From Paludibacteraceae bacterium (GTDB taxonomy: Bacteria; Bacteroidota; Bacteroidia; Bacteroidales; Paludibacteraceae), in NCBI GenBank assembly GCA_017417025.1, contig JAFPZY010000036.1:1-59447 (forward strand): a stretch of DNA of 59,447 nt. The letters run 5' to 3'. This document shows positions 638 through 16,493 of this stretch, piece by piece; positions within the stretch are counted from its first letter, which is position 1, and each line of letters opens with the position of its first letter. Position numbers and translations under genes: made by a program. The notes beneath the pieces are model-generated. The model was not told the origin of the DNA and made no database searches. It was given only the letters and a program-made list of their open reading frames with translations.

Positions 638-3085
638 ATGAAACATTTATACACCTCTCTTTTTGTTATTCTTCTTACGACGCTGTCTCTCCTTCCTGCC
701 CAAGCCAGGGCAGATGTGGATTACTTCACCATTACCGCAGAAGAAGCCAATGTGACGGTTACTATTAAATACGTTGGTAGTAGTTATCCAACAGACAAAG
801 TAACTCTAGATTATAGTAACGATGATGGAGCAACTTGGGCAACCGCTACTAATATTACAAACTGGACAACTACTCTTACAAATATAGGTGATAAGCTTTT
901 GTTTAGAGGAAACAACTCCAAAGGATTCAACACTACAGCAAATAAGAATGCTTCTTATAACGCTTTCCAATTTAGCAAAAAGGTTAGTTTGAGTGGAAAT
1001 ATTATGTCGCTTATTGACAAAACTGCAGAAACTTTAACTATCCCTGCCTATTGTTTCTTTCGAGCTTTCCGTAATCAAAAAACAATAATCGACGTTTCCA
1101 ACCTAAAACTTCCCGCCACAACACTTTCTATAGGCTGCTATCAGGGATTATTTGACGGCTGTACAGGACTTATCGGCAATACCCCTGATTTGAGTGCAAT
1201 AGAATCTGTAAGTGAGTCCAGTTGTCAGGAGATGTTCAGGTCTTGTAAAATTACCTCAATCATAGGCTTTCCACAATTAACCATTGTTGGCAGGAACAGT
1301 TTTCAAAACACTTTCAACGGTTGTACAGAACTTGTTTCTGCACCTGAATTGACCGCCACAGAAGTGGGGGTGGGTAGTTATTCATCTATGTTTTCAGGCT
1401 GCACAAAACTGAAGAATGCCACGACTGCACTCCCTGCAACAACTGTATATTCGGATTCTTATGTTTCTATGTTTTCGGGATGTACCAGCCTTGAAGTGGC
1501 TCCCGAACTGCCTGCAACCACATTAGGCGCACGTTGTTACAATCACATGTTCTATAATTGTTCCAGTCTCACTACAGCACCTGCCGAATTACCTGCTGCT
1601 ACTGCGGTCGCTGAATGTTATAGTTTCATGTTTTATGGTTGCTCCAATTTAGAAGAGGCACCTGTTATCAAAGCTACCACATGGACAACAGGCACTGGCA
1701 TGGATAAAGGATGTATGGCAGAAATGTTCTATAACTGCTCCAAACTCAATTATCTGAAAGTCTATTTCACCACTTGGGATAACAATAGTACGGCAAGTTA
1801 TCAATCCACTTACAATTGGATGAAAAATACTCAGCAACAAACCAGCCGCACTTTCCTATGTCCTTGTGCTTTGATTTCTCCATCAGTACCACGTGGAGTC
1901 AGCCGCGTCCAAACATACTGGACAGCAAAATGTATTTGTATCTACACTTTAGACGTAGCCACTAACGGCGGCACATGGGACGGGACAAAAAATGAGGCAC
2001 GCACGATTGACCGCGTTTCTGAAGAAGCCTCGCTATCCTCTCTCCCCGAAGCACAAAAGACAGGCTACAGATTCATCGGCTGGAACACGAAGGCTGACGG
2101 CAGCGGCGATGCAATAACACTTGACAACCAGACCGACTTCACCACAGACGCGACGTTCTACGCGCAGTTTGAGAAGATGCCGGCATACACCTTCGATGTA
2201 GCCACCACCGGCGGAACATGGGACGGGAGCGACGTTGCCAACCGCGTGCATTATGCAGAACTGCCAAGCGTCACACCCCAAAAAGAGGGGAACAACTTCA
2301 CGGGCTGGAACACGGAGAGTGACGGCAGCGGTAATGCAATAACCGCAGACAACATAAGCAGTTTCACTGCAGACGCAACGTTCTATGCGCAGTGGCAGCC
2401 GCAACTTGTGGAATTAGACGACACGCAGGACAACACCGCACTGCTTGCATCGCTCAACGGTGTGAGCTGTGACGTGCTGCTTGCAGGGCGCACACTGGTT
2501 GGCGGATGCGCAAACACGCTGTGCCTGCCCTTCGACCTGACGGAGGAGCAACTGGCTGAAAGTCCGCTCAGCGGCTGCACGATATGGGAGTTCGGCAGCT
2601 CAACGTTTAACGGCGAGACGCTGCATATAGACACCAACGTGGCCACAGAGATAGAGGCAGGAAAGCCTTACTTGGTGGAGCCGGCAGCCGCAGTACAGAA
2701 CCTGCGCTTCGAGGGAGTGACCATCAGTGCAAGCACGGGCACAGAGCTCGGGAACAATGCTGTGCGCTTTGTAGGGATACTGAGCCCCTTCACTATGACA
2801 GCCGGAAGCGAGGACCAGCTGTTTGTAGGCGCGGGTAACAAGCTGCTCAGGCCTTCGTCCACGTCGGCCCTGCGCGGCTTCAGGGCCTGGTTCAGGCTGA
2901 ACGACGGTCCGGCACAGGCAGCACCGCGCGCCAAACTGACCTTCGGCGAGAAGCCGCAAGTGCCCACCGGCCTTGACATCACGGAGAAAGACAACAGCCC
3001 CCGCAAGATATTCATAAACGGACAACTATACATAACACACGACGGCGCGACCTACACCCCCGCAGGAAACGTGATGCCCAAATAA
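638..3085 (+). CDS. Exported MFxGC-repeat / InlB-repeat surface protein 1
   Basis: This 815-residue protein begins with a clear signal peptide (about residues 1-25). A beta-rich N-terminal domain (about 26-140) carries FTITAE and SLSGNIMSLID, which recur in the proteins at 3315, 5690 and 53827. Residues ~150-400 hold short leucine-rich-like repeats of the type CYxxMFxGCxxLxxAPxLPA, each with two cysteines. Two Listeria-Bacteroides (InlB/Flg_new, TIGR02543-type) repeats follow at ~434-588, then a ~180-residue domain with NTLCLPFDLT that is homologous to one in the next gene. The tail NGQLYITHDGATYTPAG resembles the tails of the other surface proteins here. It is probably displayed on the cell surface through T9SS; a ligand cannot be inferred. 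Codons up to ~1940 are clearly more AT-rich than the rest. Confidence 0.85.
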   Translation: MKHLYTSLFVILLTTLSLLPAQARADVDYFTITAEEANVTVTIKYVGSSYPTDKVTLDYSNDDGATWATATNITNWTTTLTNIGDKLLFRGNNSKGFNTTANKNASYNAFQFSKKVSLSGNIMSLIDKTAETLTIPAYCFFRAFRNQKTIIDVSNLKLPATTLSIGCYQGLFDGCTGLIGNTPDLSAIESVSESSCQEMFRSCKITSIIGFPQLTIVGRNSFQNTFNGCTELVSAPELTATEVGVGSYSSMFSGCTKLKNATTALPATTVYSDSYVSMFSGCTSLEVAPELPATTLGARCYNHMFYNCSSLTTAPAELPAATAVAECYSFMFYGCSNLEEAPVIKATTWTTGTGMDKGCMAEMFYNCSKLNYLKVYFTTWDNNSTASYQSTYNWMKNTQQQTSRTFLCPCALISPSVPRGVSRVQTYWTAKCICIYTLDVATNGGTWDGTKNEARTIDRVSEEASLSSLPEAQKTGYRFIGWNTKADGSGDAITLDNQTDFTTDATFYAQFEKMPAYTFDVATTGGTWDGSDVANRVHYAELPSVTPQKEGNNFTGWNTESDGSGNAITADNISSFTADATFYAQWQPQLVELDDTQDNTALLASLNGVSCDVLLAGRTLVGGCANTLCLPFDLTEEQLAESPLSGCTIWEFGSSTFNGETLHIDTNVATEIEAGKPYLVEPAAAVQNLRFEGVTISASTGTELGNNAVRFVGILSPFTMTAGSEDQLFVGAGNKLLRPSSTSALRGFRAWFRLNDGPAQAAPRAKLTFGEKPQVPTGLDITEKDNSPRKIFINGQLYITHDGATYTPAGNVMPK

Positions 3086-9793: not shown

Positions 9794-12700
9794 ATGGTCA
9801 TGAAACATACAACACTTACTCTGTTGGCAATAGTGCTCGCCCTGCCTGTTTGGGCAGACCACCAATGTATAGACTATACCGACCTGTCTTCCGCCGTGTG
9901 CCAGACCGCAGTGTTCAACGACAAAGGGCAGCTCGGCACGTGGGGGACACGCATAGTGGACAACGGGCCTGCCGCCTCTTCAAGCCGCCATACCGTCCAC
10001 ACAGACCCCTACGAGCTGGATGCCCGCACCAGCTACCAGCTGCACACAACGCTCCCCGACGGGAGTCCGTCGGTCAGGCTCGGCAACTGGGAGAGCGGAA
10101 AACAGGCAGAGCGTATCACCTATACTTACACTGTCCCGGAAGACAACCCCGTACTGCTGCTCTACTATGCAGTGGTTCTTGAGGAACCCGGGCACGAGGC
10201 ACAAGAACAGCCGCGCTTCACTCTCGAACTGCTCAAAAACGGCGTTGCGGCCGAAAGCCAGTGCTTCTCTTTCGACTTCAAAGCCGGTTTCGACATGGAC
10301 TCCGCCTTGTGGCATCTCGAGATGCCAGGCATCTGCTGGAAGGACTGGACGATGATGGGTATCACTCTTTCGGAATTTGCAGGACAGACGGTGCAGATAC
10401 GACTTACCACCTACGACTGCACCAAAGGCGAGCACTACGGCTATGCCTATTTCGGGCTGGCATGCCGCAGCAACAAGATGCAGACCTCTTCGTGCGGCGA
10501 CTATACTGCAGAAGATGCCGCCGTGTTCCGTGCACCGGCAGGTTTCAAATACAGGTGGTACCGCAAGTCGGAGCCAACGGTGACACTATCCGAGGAGCAG
10601 ACGTTCACGCACACAGGTCCGTCGGTGACCTACCTGTGCGACATCATCAACAAGGAGAACGAGGAATGCTACTTCACCCTTGAAGCCACTCCCGAGTCGC
10701 GCTACCCTGTGGCCGAGTTCAGCCTTGAGCAGAACAGCACCGGCTGCGCGGATACGATAGTAGTGCACAACCTGAGCGGCGTAGCAGGAGAAGACCGCGT
10801 CAAGTTTGACCCTATACAGCCCTGCGACAACTATCTGTGGGACTTCGGCGACGGGCGCACATCGGTTGAGGCAGAGCCCAAGATAGTGTATGAACAGCCA
10901 GGCGAATATACGATAACACTGACGGCAGGGCTCAACGGCTGGCAATGCGCGTCCTCGGCTTTCACGCGCACAGTTACAGTCAGTGCGCGCAAGGACGCTG
11001 TCCACCAGAGCGGAGTTATATGCGAAGGCGAGACTTTTATGTGGCACGGCAAGGCCTATACGCAGGAAGGCTCATACGCCGACCCTCTCGCCACCAATGC
11101 GCTTTGCGGCGAGATACTGGACCTGACGGTGCACCCGATGGGGAAGAAAGTGGTATATGACACCATCTGCCACGGCGACAGCTATACGTGGAGGGGAGCC
11201 GTGCTCTCGGAGTCGGGCGTTTATACAGACACCGCCTACAACCGCACGGCCGACGGCTGCGACTCGGTCTATTACCTTAACCTCGCTTACTACACACGCT
11301 ACGACCGCGTGCCGCAGTCGCTGAAAGACAAACTCGGACCCGCGTCCGTAAGCGGACGAAGAGATGTGACTTACTATTCGTCGAATGCAGACCCGTGGGA
11401 CGACCCCTATATGCTGGTTCATATAGAGCATGAGACCGTTGATGCCTCTTCCTTCACATGGCACGGACACACTTACACGGAATCGGGAGTGTATATGGAC
11501 ACCATCCCTACGGCACTGCACGGCTGCGACAGTATAGTGTTCCTGGACCTGGTGCTCAACGAAGTGGAGCATCAGAAGACCATAGTGCCCGAAGAAGACT
11601 CGTTCTGCGAGGGGACATCCTACAACTGGGAAGGACGCGACCCGCGCTTCAGCGCCATAAAAGAGGCAGGGATATACAACGACACTGTCATCAATACTTC
11701 GCTTGACACGACGGTGTATATACTCACTCTGTCGCTCAAACAAAGTTCAAGTAAAGAGGTAAACCTTACAGTCTGCAACAAGCAGATACCTTATGTCTGG
11801 AACGGCATAACATGCACAAAAGCAGACGACTACACCTACACGACAGTGAACGCGGCAGGCTGCGACTCGGTGGTGACAATGCACCTTGAGGTGAACACAT
11901 ATTCGGCTTCAGAAGAGAGCGAGACGGTGTGCGAAGCGGAACTGCCGTACGAGTGGAACGGCATAAAGTGCACAAAGGCAGACGACTACACCTACACGAC
12001 AGTCAATTCGGCAGGCTGCGACTCTATAGTGACATTGCATCTTGCCGTAGCCAAAGCCACGACAGGCGAAGAGTCCGTAAAGATATGCGACAAGCTGCTC
12101 CCCTACGCGTGGAACGGCATAATCTGCACAAAAGCAGACGACTACACCTACACGACAGTGAATGCGGCAGGCTGCGACTCGGTGGTGACAATGCATCTGA
12201 CCGTGCTTCACCCTTCAACGGGAGAAGAGAGCATCAGCATCTGCGACAGCGAACTGCCCTACAAGTGGAACGGCATAACATGCACAAAGGCAGACGACTA
12301 CACCTATACGACCGTGAATGCGGCTGGCTGCGACTCGGTGGTGACACTGCACCTTAATGTGCTTCCTTCGTCCTCGACAAAAGAGGTGTTCAGCCTGTGT
12401 GACAGCGAACTGCCGTATGTGTGGAACGGCATAACATGCACAAAAGGCGGCGACTACACCTACACGACCGTGAATGCGGCAGGCTGCGACTCGGTGGTGA
12501 CACTGCAACTGGCCGTGCGGTATAAGTCAGCAGGAGAGCAGTCGGTGAAGATATGCGAGCAGGAACTGCCGTATATGTGGAACGGCATAACGTGCACACA
12601 GGGCGGCGACTACACCTACACAACAGTGAACGCGGCTGGCTGCGACTCGGTGGCGACGCTGCACCTGACGACAGAGTCGTGCGTGCCTCCTTGCGCGGCA

Positions 12701-13528
12701 CTGCAAGCGAAAGTGACGCTTGACACACTCTGCGCGGACGACCGTTACCTGCCTCTTGAGATAGAAGTGTCGTCAGGACGGATACGCAGTTACGAAGTGC
12801 GGTTCGACGAGGCAGCCCGCAAGCAGGGCTTCAACGACATGCCGGCACAGGCATATCAGGGGCGCACTCCAGACATAGCAGTGCCGCGCAATGCAGACAC
12901 AACGCGCTATGTCCGCCCCGACAACTACAACCTGACACTGACCCTGACGGACACCTGCGGAGGCGTACAGGACTTCAAGTTGTCGTTCACGGTGCTCTAT
13001 CCGGCGTGGATTATTCTGCAGCGGTGGAACGACGTGCTTGCACTGCTCAACGAGCGCTACAACGGAGGTTACACCTTCTCGTCAATCCGGTGGTTCCACG
13101 AAGGCAGCGAACTGGAAGCGCGAGGGGAGCACAATTCGTATATCTACATCCTCCCGACACTCGGTTTCGAGGAGGCTTATTGGGCGGAACTCACCCGCAC
13201 GGACGACGGCAAGACGTTCCGGACATGCTACAAGTACCCGCACCACACCAACAAGGACCGCACAGGCTTTGTGCCAGAAAAGATACGGTTGGTGCCGGCA
13301 GAAGGACGGAGATACTGCTGGCAGGTGAGCACCGAACTGAGCGGCACCTATATGCTGTATGACGTATGCGGGCGCATGCTCCGCCCCGGGCGTTTCGGCA
13401 GCAGCGGCGAAAGAGGCGGTGCGGAGGACATACTGGATTTGAGCGACTTGGGGCATGCAGGCTGTTTCCTTGTCGTTTTCCATGCGGATGACGGCACTGT
13501 AGAGACCAAGAAACTGACCTTGCAATAA
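9794..13528 (+). CDS. Exported PKD-domain protein with six identical-length GCDSVVT repeats
   Basis: Starts are possible at 9794 and 9800; both keep the signal peptide MKHTTLTLLAIVLALPVWA. The ~1244-residue protein has an N-terminal carbohydrate-binding-like beta region (to ~290), a PKD domain (~305-395, NYLWDFGDGRTS and YEQPGEYTITLTAG), four degenerate repeats and six close repeats of exactly 52 residues (core WNGITCTKADDYTYTTV then GCDSVVT). A C-terminal region ends YMLYDVCGRML and later FLVVFHADDGTVETKKLTL, which fits a T9SS sorting domain. Such GCDSVV.L.L repeats are frequent in exported Bacteroidetes proteins. It is the last gene of the surface cluster and is followed by a terminator. 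An adhesin or matrix role is an inference. Confidence 0.8.
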   Translation: MVMKHTTLTLLAIVLALPVWADHQCIDYTDLSSAVCQTAVFNDKGQLGTWGTRIVDNGPAASSSRHTVHTDPYELDARTSYQLHTTLPDGSPSVRLGNWESGKQAERITYTYTVPEDNPVLLLYYAVVLEEPGHEAQEQPRFTLELLKNGVAAESQCFSFDFKAGFDMDSALWHLEMPGICWKDWTMMGITLSEFAGQTVQIRLTTYDCTKGEHYGYAYFGLACRSNKMQTSSCGDYTAEDAAVFRAPAGFKYRWYRKSEPTVTLSEEQTFTHTGPSVTYLCDIINKENEECYFTLEATPESRYPVAEFSLEQNSTGCADTIVVHNLSGVAGEDRVKFDPIQPCDNYLWDFGDGRTSVEAEPKIVYEQPGEYTITLTAGLNGWQCASSAFTRTVTVSARKDAVHQSGVICEGETFMWHGKAYTQEGSYADPLATNALCGEILDLTVHPMGKKVVYDTICHGDSYTWRGAVLSESGVYTDTAYNRTADGCDSVYYLNLAYYTRYDRVPQSLKDKLGPASVSGRRDVTYYSSNADPWDDPYMLVHIEHETVDASSFTWHGHTYTESGVYMDTIPTALHGCDSIVFLDLVLNEVEHQKTIVPEEDSFCEGTSYNWEGRDPRFSAIKEAGIYNDTVINTSLDTTVYILTLSLKQSSSKEVNLTVCNKQIPYVWNGITCTKADDYTYTTVNAAGCDSVVTMHLEVNTYSASEESETVCEAELPYEWNGIKCTKADDYTYTTVNSAGCDSIVTLHLAVAKATTGEESVKICDKLLPYAWNGIICTKADDYTYTTVNAAGCDSVVTMHLTVLHPSTGEESISICDSELPYKWNGITCTKADDYTYTTVNAAGCDSVVTLHLNVLPSSSTKEVFSLCDSELPYVWNGITCTKGGDYTYTTVNAAGCDSVVTLQLAVRYKSAGEQSVKICEQELPYMWNGITCTQGGDYTYTTVNAAGCDSVATLHLTTESCVPPCAALQAKVTLDTLCADDRYLPLEIEVSSGRIRSYEVRFDEAARKQGFNDMPAQAYQGRTPDIAVPRNADTTRYVRPDNYNLTLTLTDTCGGVQDFKLSFTVLYPAWIILQRWNDVLALLNERYNGGYTFSSIRWFHEGSELEARGEHNSYIYILPTLGFEEAYWAELTRTDDGKTFRTCYKYPHHTNKDRTGFVPEKIRLVPAEGRRYCWQVSTELSGTYMLYDVCGRMLRPGRFGSSGERGGAEDILDLSDLGHAGCFLVVFHADDGTVETKKLTLQ
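11758..12693 (+). repeat. Six tandem 156-bp coding repeats
   Basis: The codon TGG of WNG occurs at 11798, 11954, 12110, 12266, 12422 and 12578, exactly 156 bp apart, so each repeat encodes 52 residues with no length variation. Within each unit roughly 80 bases (TGGAACGGCATAA to GTGGTGACA) are nearly identical and the linker diverges. Confidence 0.95.
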
Positions 13529-14094: not shown

Positions 14095-14318
14095 CCGAAA
14101 CGAAAAGAGGGATGGAATATTTCCTTATTAAGAGGAACAAGATATTCTCTGACAGAAACGAAAAGAGGGATGGAATATTTCCTTACTAAGAGGAACAAGA
14201 TATTCTCTGACAGAAACGAAAAGAGGGATGGAATATTTCCTGGTTAAAAGGGACAGGATATTCCTAAATGAAACGAAAAGAGGGGAATGATGTTTCCTGA
14301 ATGAAACGAAAAGAAACG
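14095..14318 (+). repeat. 58-bp tandem repeats forming the peptidase leader
   Basis: CGAAAAGAGG occurs at 14101, 14159, 14217 and 14274 and, as CGAAAAGAAA, at 14307. There are three units of 58 bp, a shortened unit and a partial one. The first three units each contain AAAAGAGGGATGG, a purine-rich stretch directly before an ATG that opens a short frame (14112-14189, 14170-14247, 14228-14290), each beginning MEYFL. The upstream ATG at 14301 of the peptidase frame is itself inside the last partial unit. Confidence 0.85.
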
Positions 14319-16493
14319 ATGAACAAGACACTTCTCGCCGCGACAACGGCAATAATGGTTATGACGACCGCATGCACACAGAAAGAGCCTCTGCAGACAG
14401 GTATTCATATCGAGAACCTCGACATGAACGTATGCCCGCAACAGGACTTCTACCAGTTCGCCACCGGCGGCTGGCAGCAGCAGAACCCGCTCACCGGCGA
14501 ATACGCCCGCTTCGGGAGCTTCGACAAACTGGGTCTGCAGAACCTTGAGCAGGTGAACGGTCTGATACAGGACATTGCCGCCACAGAGCACAAACACGGC
14601 AGCGTCGAGCAGAAAATAGGCGACATCTACAATCTGGCTATGGACACCGCGCGCCGCAACAACGAAGGGTATGAGGCGATACGCCGCAGCATAGAGGAGA
14701 TAGACGGCGTGACGGACCGCAGCCAATTGTCAGGCCTGTTAGGAAAGTCGATGGAATACAGCCTGTGGGCGATGTATGTGGATGCCGATGCGCTGAACTC
14801 GTCAATGAACATCCTGAACGAGTATCAGGCAGGTTTCGCGCTCGGGCAGAAAGAGTATTATTTAGACGAGGACGAGCACACGCGCAGCATACGCGAGGCA
14901 TACCTGAAGCACATAGCACGCATGTTCTCGCTGTACGGCATAGGCGAAGCCGACCAGGCCGCACAGACAGTGCTGAGATTAGAGACACGTCTGGCGAAGG
15001 CCGCCAAATCGAATGTAGAGTTGCGCGACCCGATAGACAACTACAACAAGATGTCGATAGAGGAGCTGAAGCAACTGGTTCCGCAAATCAACTGGGACGA
15101 GTACTTCGCCGCGATGGACATAAAGACCGACAGTCTGTCAGTCGGGCAGAAAGAGCACCTTGCCGAGGCAGGCAGGATGCTGGGCGAAGAGCCATTGGAG
15201 GACCTGAAGACGCTGCTGAAGTGGCAGGTGCTTGACGGCGCGGCTTCTTACCTGACCGACGAGATGTACGCCGCCAACTTCGACTTCTACGGGCGCGTGC
15301 TGTCCGGCAAAGAGGAGCAGTCGCCGCTGTGGAAACGTGCCGTGGGGATGGTGAACGGGACTCTGGGCGAAGCCGTGGGACAGATGTATGTGAAGAAATA
15401 CTTCCCGGAGGAGAACAAGAAACGCATGCTGTCATTGGTGAAGAACCTGCAGAAGGCCCTGTCGGAGCGCATAGCCGCTTTGGAGTGGATGAGCGACGAG
15501 ACCAAAGCCAAAGCCCAGGAGAAACTGGCAAGCATGACCATCAAAATAGGCTATCCAGACACCTGGCGCGACTACTCGAAACTGGATATCGACCCCGCCC
15601 TGAGTTACTACGAGAACATACAGCGCGCTGCGAAGTTTGAGCAGGAGTACTCGCTGAGCTATCTGAACAAGCCCGTGGACAAGACGAAATGGTACATGAC
15701 CCCGCAGACGGTGAATGCGTACTACAATCCGTCGTCCAACGAAATCTGTTTCCCCGCCGGCATACTGCAATACCCGTTCTTCGACATGAGCGCGGACGAT
15801 GCTTTCAACTACGGCGCAATAGGCGTGGTGATAGGGCATGAGATGACTCACGGCTTCGACGACCAGGGGTGCCTGTTCGACAAGGACGGCAACCTGCAGA
15901 ACTGGTGGACCGCAGAGGACAAAGCGCGCTTCGACGAGCGCACGGCAGTGATGCGCGACTACTTCGACAACATAGAAGTGGCTCCGGGCGTGCATGCCAA
16001 CGGCGCATTCACACTGGGAGAGAACATTGCCGACCACGGAGGCCTGCAGATATCGTATCAGGCTTTTGCCTCGCAGATGAAGAAGAACGGCCTCGACCCG
16101 ATGCAGGCCTGCTGCGAGAAGAAAGAAGGTTGCTGCAAAGAGGAGCAGAAATGCTGCAAAGAAGATAAATCATGCTGCAAAGAGGGAGAGAAAAAATCCT
16201 GCTGCAGCGAAGGACAGGCCTGCTGCAAGGAGGGAGACAAGAAAGCCTGCTGCAAGGACGGCGGCGCGATGTTCTCGCCGGCACAACGCTTCTTCCTCGC
16301 CTACGCCAATGTATGGGCGGCCAACATCAGGGACGAAGAGATACTGCAACGCACCAAATCGGACCCCCACTCTCTTGGCCGCTGGCGCGTGAACGGCGCA
16401 CTGCCCCACATCGGAGCATGGTACGAGGCGTGGAACATAACAGAAGAGAGCCCGCTGTATCTTGCTCCTGAAAAGCGCGTGAGCATCTGGTAA
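14319..16493 (+). CDS. M13 (neprilysin/PepO-like) metallopeptidase lipoprotein with Cys-Cys insertion
   Basis: I choose ATG at 14319 rather than 14301, because the latter lies in the leader repeat and 14319 gives a compact lipoprotein signal ending MVMTTAC. The 724-residue product matches M13 endopeptidases along its length: GHEMTHGFDDQG (HExxH at about 507-511), the third zinc ligand in GENIADHGG (~568), and the terminal FFLAYANVWAA and RVNGALPH motifs. The family cleaves peptides outside the cytoplasm; here it is probably anchored in an envelope membrane. Between the GENIAD helix and the FFLAY block, residues ~598-649 form an insert of seven CC pairs separated by Lys/Glu-rich spacers; an insert of this kind is not part of the usual M13 fold. 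Transcribed alone from 14059-14090. Confidence 0.92.
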   Translation: MNKTLLAATTAIMVMTTACTQKEPLQTGIHIENLDMNVCPQQDFYQFATGGWQQQNPLTGEYARFGSFDKLGLQNLEQVNGLIQDIAATEHKHGSVEQKIGDIYNLAMDTARRNNEGYEAIRRSIEEIDGVTDRSQLSGLLGKSMEYSLWAMYVDADALNSSMNILNEYQAGFALGQKEYYLDEDEHTRSIREAYLKHIARMFSLYGIGEADQAAQTVLRLETRLAKAAKSNVELRDPIDNYNKMSIEELKQLVPQINWDEYFAAMDIKTDSLSVGQKEHLAEAGRMLGEEPLEDLKTLLKWQVLDGAASYLTDEMYAANFDFYGRVLSGKEEQSPLWKRAVGMVNGTLGEAVGQMYVKKYFPEENKKRMLSLVKNLQKALSERIAALEWMSDETKAKAQEKLASMTIKIGYPDTWRDYSKLDIDPALSYYENIQRAAKFEQEYSLSYLNKPVDKTKWYMTPQTVNAYYNPSSNEICFPAGILQYPFFDMSADDAFNYGAIGVVIGHEMTHGFDDQGCLFDKDGNLQNWWTAEDKARFDERTAVMRDYFDNIEVAPGVHANGAFTLGENIADHGGLQISYQAFASQMKKNGLDPMQACCEKKEGCCKEEQKCCKEDKSCCKEGEKKSCCSEGQACCKEGDKKACCKDGGAMFSPAQRFFLAYANVWAANIRDEEILQRTKSDPHSLGRWRVNGALPHIGAWYEAWNITEESPLYLAPEKRVSIW

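Follow-up and report, generated by a model that had tools for sequence, protein, structure and literature searches.

The window analysed here, a stretch of 59,447 nucleotides from a Paludibacteraceae genome, holds a gene for an M13 zinc metallopeptidase that is interrupted, late in its reading frame, by seven Cys-Cys (CC) pairs within 49 residues. This raises the question of where such a cysteine array came from, and what it could do in an exported enzyme.

The peptidase and its insert

The 730-residue product matched both Pfam Peptidase_M13_N (PF05649, E 4.1e-119) and Peptidase_M13 (PF01431, E 2.1e-62), its zinc and catalytic motifs (HEMTH at 513 and GENIAD at 573) were invariant in all 24 rows of the alignment, and it was found to have the M13 fold. 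By domain, motif and fold the window protein is an M13 peptidase. The parts played by the HEXXH and ExxxD motifs, and by the GENIAD glutamate as a zinc ligand, are presumed to be those usual for the family, and the signal peptide with Cys25 was assigned by the lipobox rule. The motifs and fold of the insert-bearing lipoprotein are intact, and it is probably catalytically active. The features, all on the forward strand, are as follows.

14301..16493 (+): gene of the M13 (PepO-type) zinc metallopeptidase (730 aa), the start codon being that at 14301 or that at 14319
14319..14375 (+): signal peptide, from reading of the sequence, with the lipobox-like MTTAC at its end and Cys25 as the presumed lipidated residue
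15837..15851 (+): HEMTH, the HEXXH motif that binds zinc (residues 513-517), unchanged in all 24 rows of the alignment
16017..16034 (+): GENIAD, the third zinc ligand segment, residues 573-578, which opens a long helix (24-row alignment and structure model)
16110..16256 (+): in-frame insert of 147 bp, residues 604-652, with seven CC pairs (sequence, alignment, loops of relatives and model)
16284..16304 (+): QRFFLAY block, residues 662-668, where the M13 fold resumes (alignment)

Tandem repeats of 58 bp (3.3 copies, positions 14097-14284) were detected by TRF immediately 5' of the start codon.

The 49 residues of the insert include 14 Cys, 13 Lys and 9 Glu, and not a single aromatic or aliphatic/hydrophobic one; its cysteines are at residues 604/605, 611/612, 618/619, 625/626, 634/635, 641/642 and 650/651. 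The initial annotation had described seven pairs with spacers of 5, 5, 5, 7, 5 and 7 residues, exactly as found in the translated frame, and its residue numbers (~598-649) fit a count from the second ATG at 14319. The underlying DNA had also been called a degenerate repeat, and TRF indeed reported arrays of 21 bp at 16131-16193 and of 42 bp at 16110-16193, with 72 and 79% matches. All 14 cysteine codons are TGC, which alone carries little weight because TGC already makes up 256 of 301 Cys codons across those ORFs of the window that were counted. When the seven units were compared with one another, the bases of the Cys codons differed in 0/126 comparisons and those of the next three codons, the first of the spacer, in 63/153; the repeat has thus kept every Cys codon while the spacers of the insert diverged. 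Cys makes up 2.1% of the residues in 24 non-overlapping window ORFs longer than 250 aa (14,601 aa in total), which were taken longest first and may include some non-genes, and only one other CC was present among them. Shuffling of the residues within each ORF (200 shuffles) gave a maximum of 8 Cys per 48 residues, compared to the 14 observed.

Usual M13 enzymes were said to have a short loop at this position, and this proved right for all 156 relatives' loops that were read: they were 23-39 aa long, with 0-2 Cys and no CC. The 156 loops represent 115 distinct 300-nt stretches, some genomes being included twice and one locus being a paralogue. An M13 match was obtained in 170 of the 178 genomes of the genus, part of whose loops were read; among the unread rows listed, others were judged by the length of the open frame, and 20 with long frames or long alignments were then fetched. 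As the insert was absent from each of the 156 loops, the idea that it is shared among M13 homologues was rejected for the loops that were read. Set against the relatives, the insert follows A603 and precedes D653 exactly in frame; the sequence in the window is ...NGLDPMQA[49 residues]DGGAMFSPA, versus ...KGIDPLKADGNDFSPA in G080 and ...KGIDPMAVDKSGYSPA in G099. By this alignment, the insert is a clean in-frame gain of 147 bp relative to the sampled relatives. It is known from one metagenome-assembled genome (MAG) only, which is 89% complete and in 64 contigs. The closest M13 sequence of nearly full length shares only ~77% identity (a partial one, L193, 84%), so 'one species' with the insert means one long branch. 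The loci of the relatives belong to Paludibacteraceae or other Bacteroidales, nearly all are from MAGs, and many come from ruminant gut. The closest M13 structures, PepO of Tannerella forsythia (9eyg) and of Porphyromonas gingivalis (9kn2 and 9fma), have no CC array; the phmmer match to 9eyg_A breaks off at query residue 593 and picks up again at 657, a gap in which the chain has 9 residues (569 to 579).

Predicted structure and likeness to metallothioneins

In the AlphaFold2 model, the numbering of which is 6 lower than that of the 730-aa protein, a helix of 24 residues (model 566-589) was predicted to start at the zinc-ligand segment. The insert begins 30 residues past the ligand Glu574, beyond this helix (model residue 598), which indicates that the loop is probably away from the active site; judging by the length of the helix, it would be roughly 30 Å from the zinc. 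The insert had been proposed to lie beside the catalytic cleft, and this placement was set aside since the predicted helix separates Glu574 from it. It had further been called a domain, and here structure modelling gave a predicted disordered loop rather than a folded unit, with pLDDT below 50 at model residues 600-646 and 35-46 for the block, the input alignment containing no second copy of the insert and hence little for the prediction to use. The model is most compatible with a loop that is probably a flexible appendage.

Metallothioneins are exceptionally rich in Cys, contain hardly any aromatic residues or none, and have clusters of the CXC and CC type. The initial comparison to metallothioneins in composition is upheld by the insert's 14 Cys in 49 residues and its lack of aromatic and aliphatic ones. 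No match to a metallothionein family was obtained for the insert in Pfam or NCBIfam, and none to any structure in the PDB. We would therefore describe it as metallothionein-like in its presumed way of working, and do not place it in any described metallothionein family. In the Tetrahymena study PMC1808422, the metallothioneins of subfamily 7a are described as having C2X6 as the commonest unit, most Cys in CC clusters and growth by accretion of repeats, and as being induced more by Cd than by Cu. Unlike the insert, which has C2X5 and C2X7 units only, no C2X6, and is embedded in an enzyme, these proteins are eukaryotic and also contain CCC and CXCC clusters; the likeness is one of architecture and does not imply homology. 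The C2X6 unit was seen in a tail of another protein, NqrC, in the genome G019.

Cysteine-rich tails of NqrC in the same genome and genus

Na+-NQR is a respiratory pump in many anaerobes. Querying the whole genome of the window led to a second CC array, with eight CC pairs, at the C terminus of NqrC (L033:799-1617, G000:C51). This protein was identified by NCBIfam TIGR01938 (172.7 bits, cut-off 144) and is encoded within an apparent nqrBCDEF gene order, the names of the other subunits being our assumption. The units of its tail are mostly CCKEQSD and CCKEQKE, and all its Cys codons are TGC. Its core, cut at the start of the tail, matches the NqrC structure 3lwx up to residue 195 of 199, four from the end, and NqrC bears FMN on the periplasmic side according to PMC10739449; the tail should thus be periplasmic. 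A single mobile DNA repeat that seeded both genes is not supported, as the DNA of the M13 insert and that of the NqrC tail were not clearly more alike than codon-resampled controls, 31 of 500 of which scored as high. Pfam gave no match for five of the Cys tails of NqrC, and NCBIfam none for one. Residues 217-254, in the CC tail of NqrC, weakly resembled an SO_0444 family Cu/Zn efflux transporter (NF033936; E 2.3, 7.3 of 300 bits); this match is far below the cut-off, concerns a transporter and serves as a lead only. Some NqrC tails also contain CXC and CXXC, in distinction to the M13 insert with CC only.

Apart from the M13 and NqrC genes, whole-genome queries revealed no credible array in this genome. 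The NqrC-tail query returned two further places, one antisense and one weak (E 0.67 and 0.91); in 314,550 bases of other stretches of the genome, the weak place included, no further Lys/Glu-rich Cys array was found, and the other Cys-dense frames looked like noise of other reading frames. At a threshold of E 1, the same query matched 16 of the 178 genomes in the genus, outside the own genome never convincingly, and such queries are insensitive to other spacings, since this one missed the G019 tail. The insert query matched 2 of 178 genomes at E 0.01, the own genome and G010, where a small CC-rich, lipoprotein-like ORF in a style akin to the insert was seen (L032, from base 1293). At the level of the order it matched 2 of 393 genomes at 0.001, and a three-row profile matched 6 of 393 at 0.01, the weaker matches being doubtful; the order-level match G484 is a small secreted Cys/Lys protein. 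No insert-like array was found in viral contigs and plasmids.

Cys-rich NqrC tails, with the threshold set at 6 Cys, were more frequent in the genus. Among the 90 tails read, 16 (that of the window genome included) have 7-24 Cys, 4 have 2-5 and 70 have 0-1, the last group including L165, which is cut by a contig end. NqrC was matched in 131 of 178 genomes, and the 90 consist of the 30 best and 60 chosen with frame lengths in view and tails unseen. In the order, with NqrC matched in 299 of 369 genomes, none of the 49 loci read had more than 1 Cys in its tail (0/47 Cys-rich in other families); 29 of these were fetched beside the window genome's own, one from the same genus and one from the same family, and 20 mainly for their long frames.

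In the NqrC tree, 9 of the 16 Cys-rich sequences form one set together with G186 (SH-aLRT 98), and G186 has no Cys tail, indicating that the tail is dispensable. The Cys-tail label needs a minimum of 8 state changes, gains or losses, of which at least 5 are forced by well-supported branches; without L159 the minimum is 7, with 3 forced. Several forced changes make it likely that the Cys tails arose more than once or were passed between lineages. The tail of L159 (G099) aligns with those of G065, G177 and G137, and its core is located elsewhere in the tree; the mismatch suggests either exchange or a misplaced core.

Cys was the better conserved residue in most sets of tails, although the gapped alignment of Cys-rich tails favours matching of Cys and inflates these figures: in L141/L142/L143/L159, 114/122 aligned pairs involving Cys (93%) were identical versus 144/292 of the others (49%), with weaker conservation in L145-L149 (128/182 versus 196/383), 592/778 versus 575/1645 for ten tails (the clade and L159), and hardly any difference in L214/L217/L219 (24/24 versus 96/108). 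Several tails mix TGC and TGT codons (e.g. 14/8, 11/7 and 9/8), which points to the Cys residue, rather than the DNA repeat, as the thing that is kept; others are all TGC. The tail of G019 is a near-perfect 24-bp repeat with units of the CCKAEKEG type, and to judge from this near-identity, the array is young. Another kind of extension was observed in L208 and L210, which end in a TonB-plug-like segment (PF07715, E 1.3e-5, 26.1 bits, cut-off 23.9), as L211 and L256 appear to do by eye. The C terminus of NqrC seems from these sequences to be a hot spot for extensions.

Thiol state and competing explanations

Profiles for DsbB (PF02600) and VKOR (PF07884) gave no match in any of 16 genomes of the genus, of which only 5 reach 90% completeness with contamination of 5% or less. 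Of 14 control genomes, 6 matched the first profile and 3 the second. This favours reduced thiols. Cysteines paired this closely readily coordinate Zn, Cd, Cu(I) and As(III). We give about even weight to the reading that the insert is a metallothionein-like buffer of soft metals or thiols, grown by repeat expansion on a periplasmic protein; it is favoured by the composition and predicted disorder of the insert, by envelope thiols that are probably reduced, by the CC pairs as metal ligands and by the precedent of the Tetrahymena 7a proteins. A short CC-encoding repeat would have expanded within a surface loop of the M13 lipoprotein in this lineage, and the thiols would stay reduced in an anaerobic envelope that has no known source of disulfides. 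The pairs, held on a Lys/Glu leash, may then bind Zn, Cd, Cu(I) or As(III), or buffer thiols, at the cell envelope, the insert acting as a flexible, solvent-exposed, thiolate-rich loop and hence as a small metallothionein. The reduced state, the metal binding and any benefit to the cell are what we infer. Of the metal-binding or disulfide-switched domain that was initially suggested, metal binding stands as the best reading, in view of the kept Cys codons and the NqrC tails, and a disulfide switch is less likely in the light of the 16 genomes.

The insert may further be part of a habit of the genus, in which arrays have grown on periplasmic proteins, more often on NqrC. More tentatively, we suggest that the genus repeatedly builds metallothionein-like modules de novo on periplasmic enzymes. 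A CC codon pair would multiply in tandem, and its copies would then diverge while selection retains the Cys. The modules would be placed chiefly at the C terminus of NqrC, where metals or thiols at the Na+ pump could be shielded or buffered by them, and in this species also inside an M13 peptidase. As an equally tentative part of this suggestion, its stages might be seen side by side, from near-perfect (G019) and mildly diverged (NqrC of the window genome) to degenerate (M13) and non-repetitive Cys-rich (G065/G177/G137). If the arrays bind metal, periplasmic proteins would have acquired a metallothionein-like function more than once and in recent times, with the intermediate forms still present, and the birth of a metal-binding module through repeat expansion would become directly testable. 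Na+-NQR would also gain an accessory part in one genus. Among the titles and abstract openings listed from the open-access literature (e.g. 10 of 1,609 matches), none reported such a part, or an M13 insert or NqrC tail rich in Cys, which is not proof of absence.

The main rival, unlikely in our judgement but a serious one, is a neutral expansion of a TGCTGCAAAGAG-like minisatellite in a tolerant surface loop, without function. The insert is after all a degenerate tandem repeat in a window rich in minisatellites (e.g. TRF arrays of 7, 11, 22, 33 and 58 bp), its site tolerates 23-39 residues in relatives, it is known in one species only, and the G019 tail shows how regular such a repeat can be. 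However, mere expansion does not readily account for all 14 Cys being kept as the spacers diverged, for diverging NqrC tails that keep Cys with TGC and TGT mixed, or for the recurrence of Cys-rich tails on NqrC in several branches; the control-level similarity of the M13 and NqrC DNA likewise gives no sign of a single mobile repeat. We find it rather improbable that the pairs form a disulfide-stabilised or disulfide-switched domain, such as a granulin-like CC ladder or a redox gate on activity. CC pairs every 5-7 residues do recall granulin, and disulfides form in the Bacteroidota envelope in another setting, that of SprF-GldK (PMC12635249). The Pfam Granulin score (E 0.65, 10.7 bits) is nevertheless under the cut-off of 20.9, the insert is predicted to be disordered (by a model that had no homologous insert), and the DsbB and VKOR result speaks against disulfides.

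We consider it very unlikely that the array is a scaffold for another factor, be it a cofactor of the iron-sulfur or a comparable kind or a docked partner, which would give the peptidase a new role. This would suit the position of the NqrC arrays on an electron-transfer subunit, but Cys spacing varies widely among the tails and the five tested have no Pfam match. An artefact of assembly or binning is hardly credible: although a single incomplete and fragmented MAG carries the insert, its junctions are exactly in frame, the repeat units are distinguishable from one another, both ends of the window are over 16 kb away, and a like array is present in NqrC of the same genome. The metallothionein-like buffer thus remains the reading to which we give most weight.

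Repeats of other kinds were seen elsewhere in the window. An ORF at 638-3085 contains List_Bact_rpt repeats (Pfam PF09479), and an ORF of 1244 aa at 9794-13528 contains a PKD domain as well as several WNGITCTKADDYTYTTVNAAGCDSVVTLHL-type repeats.
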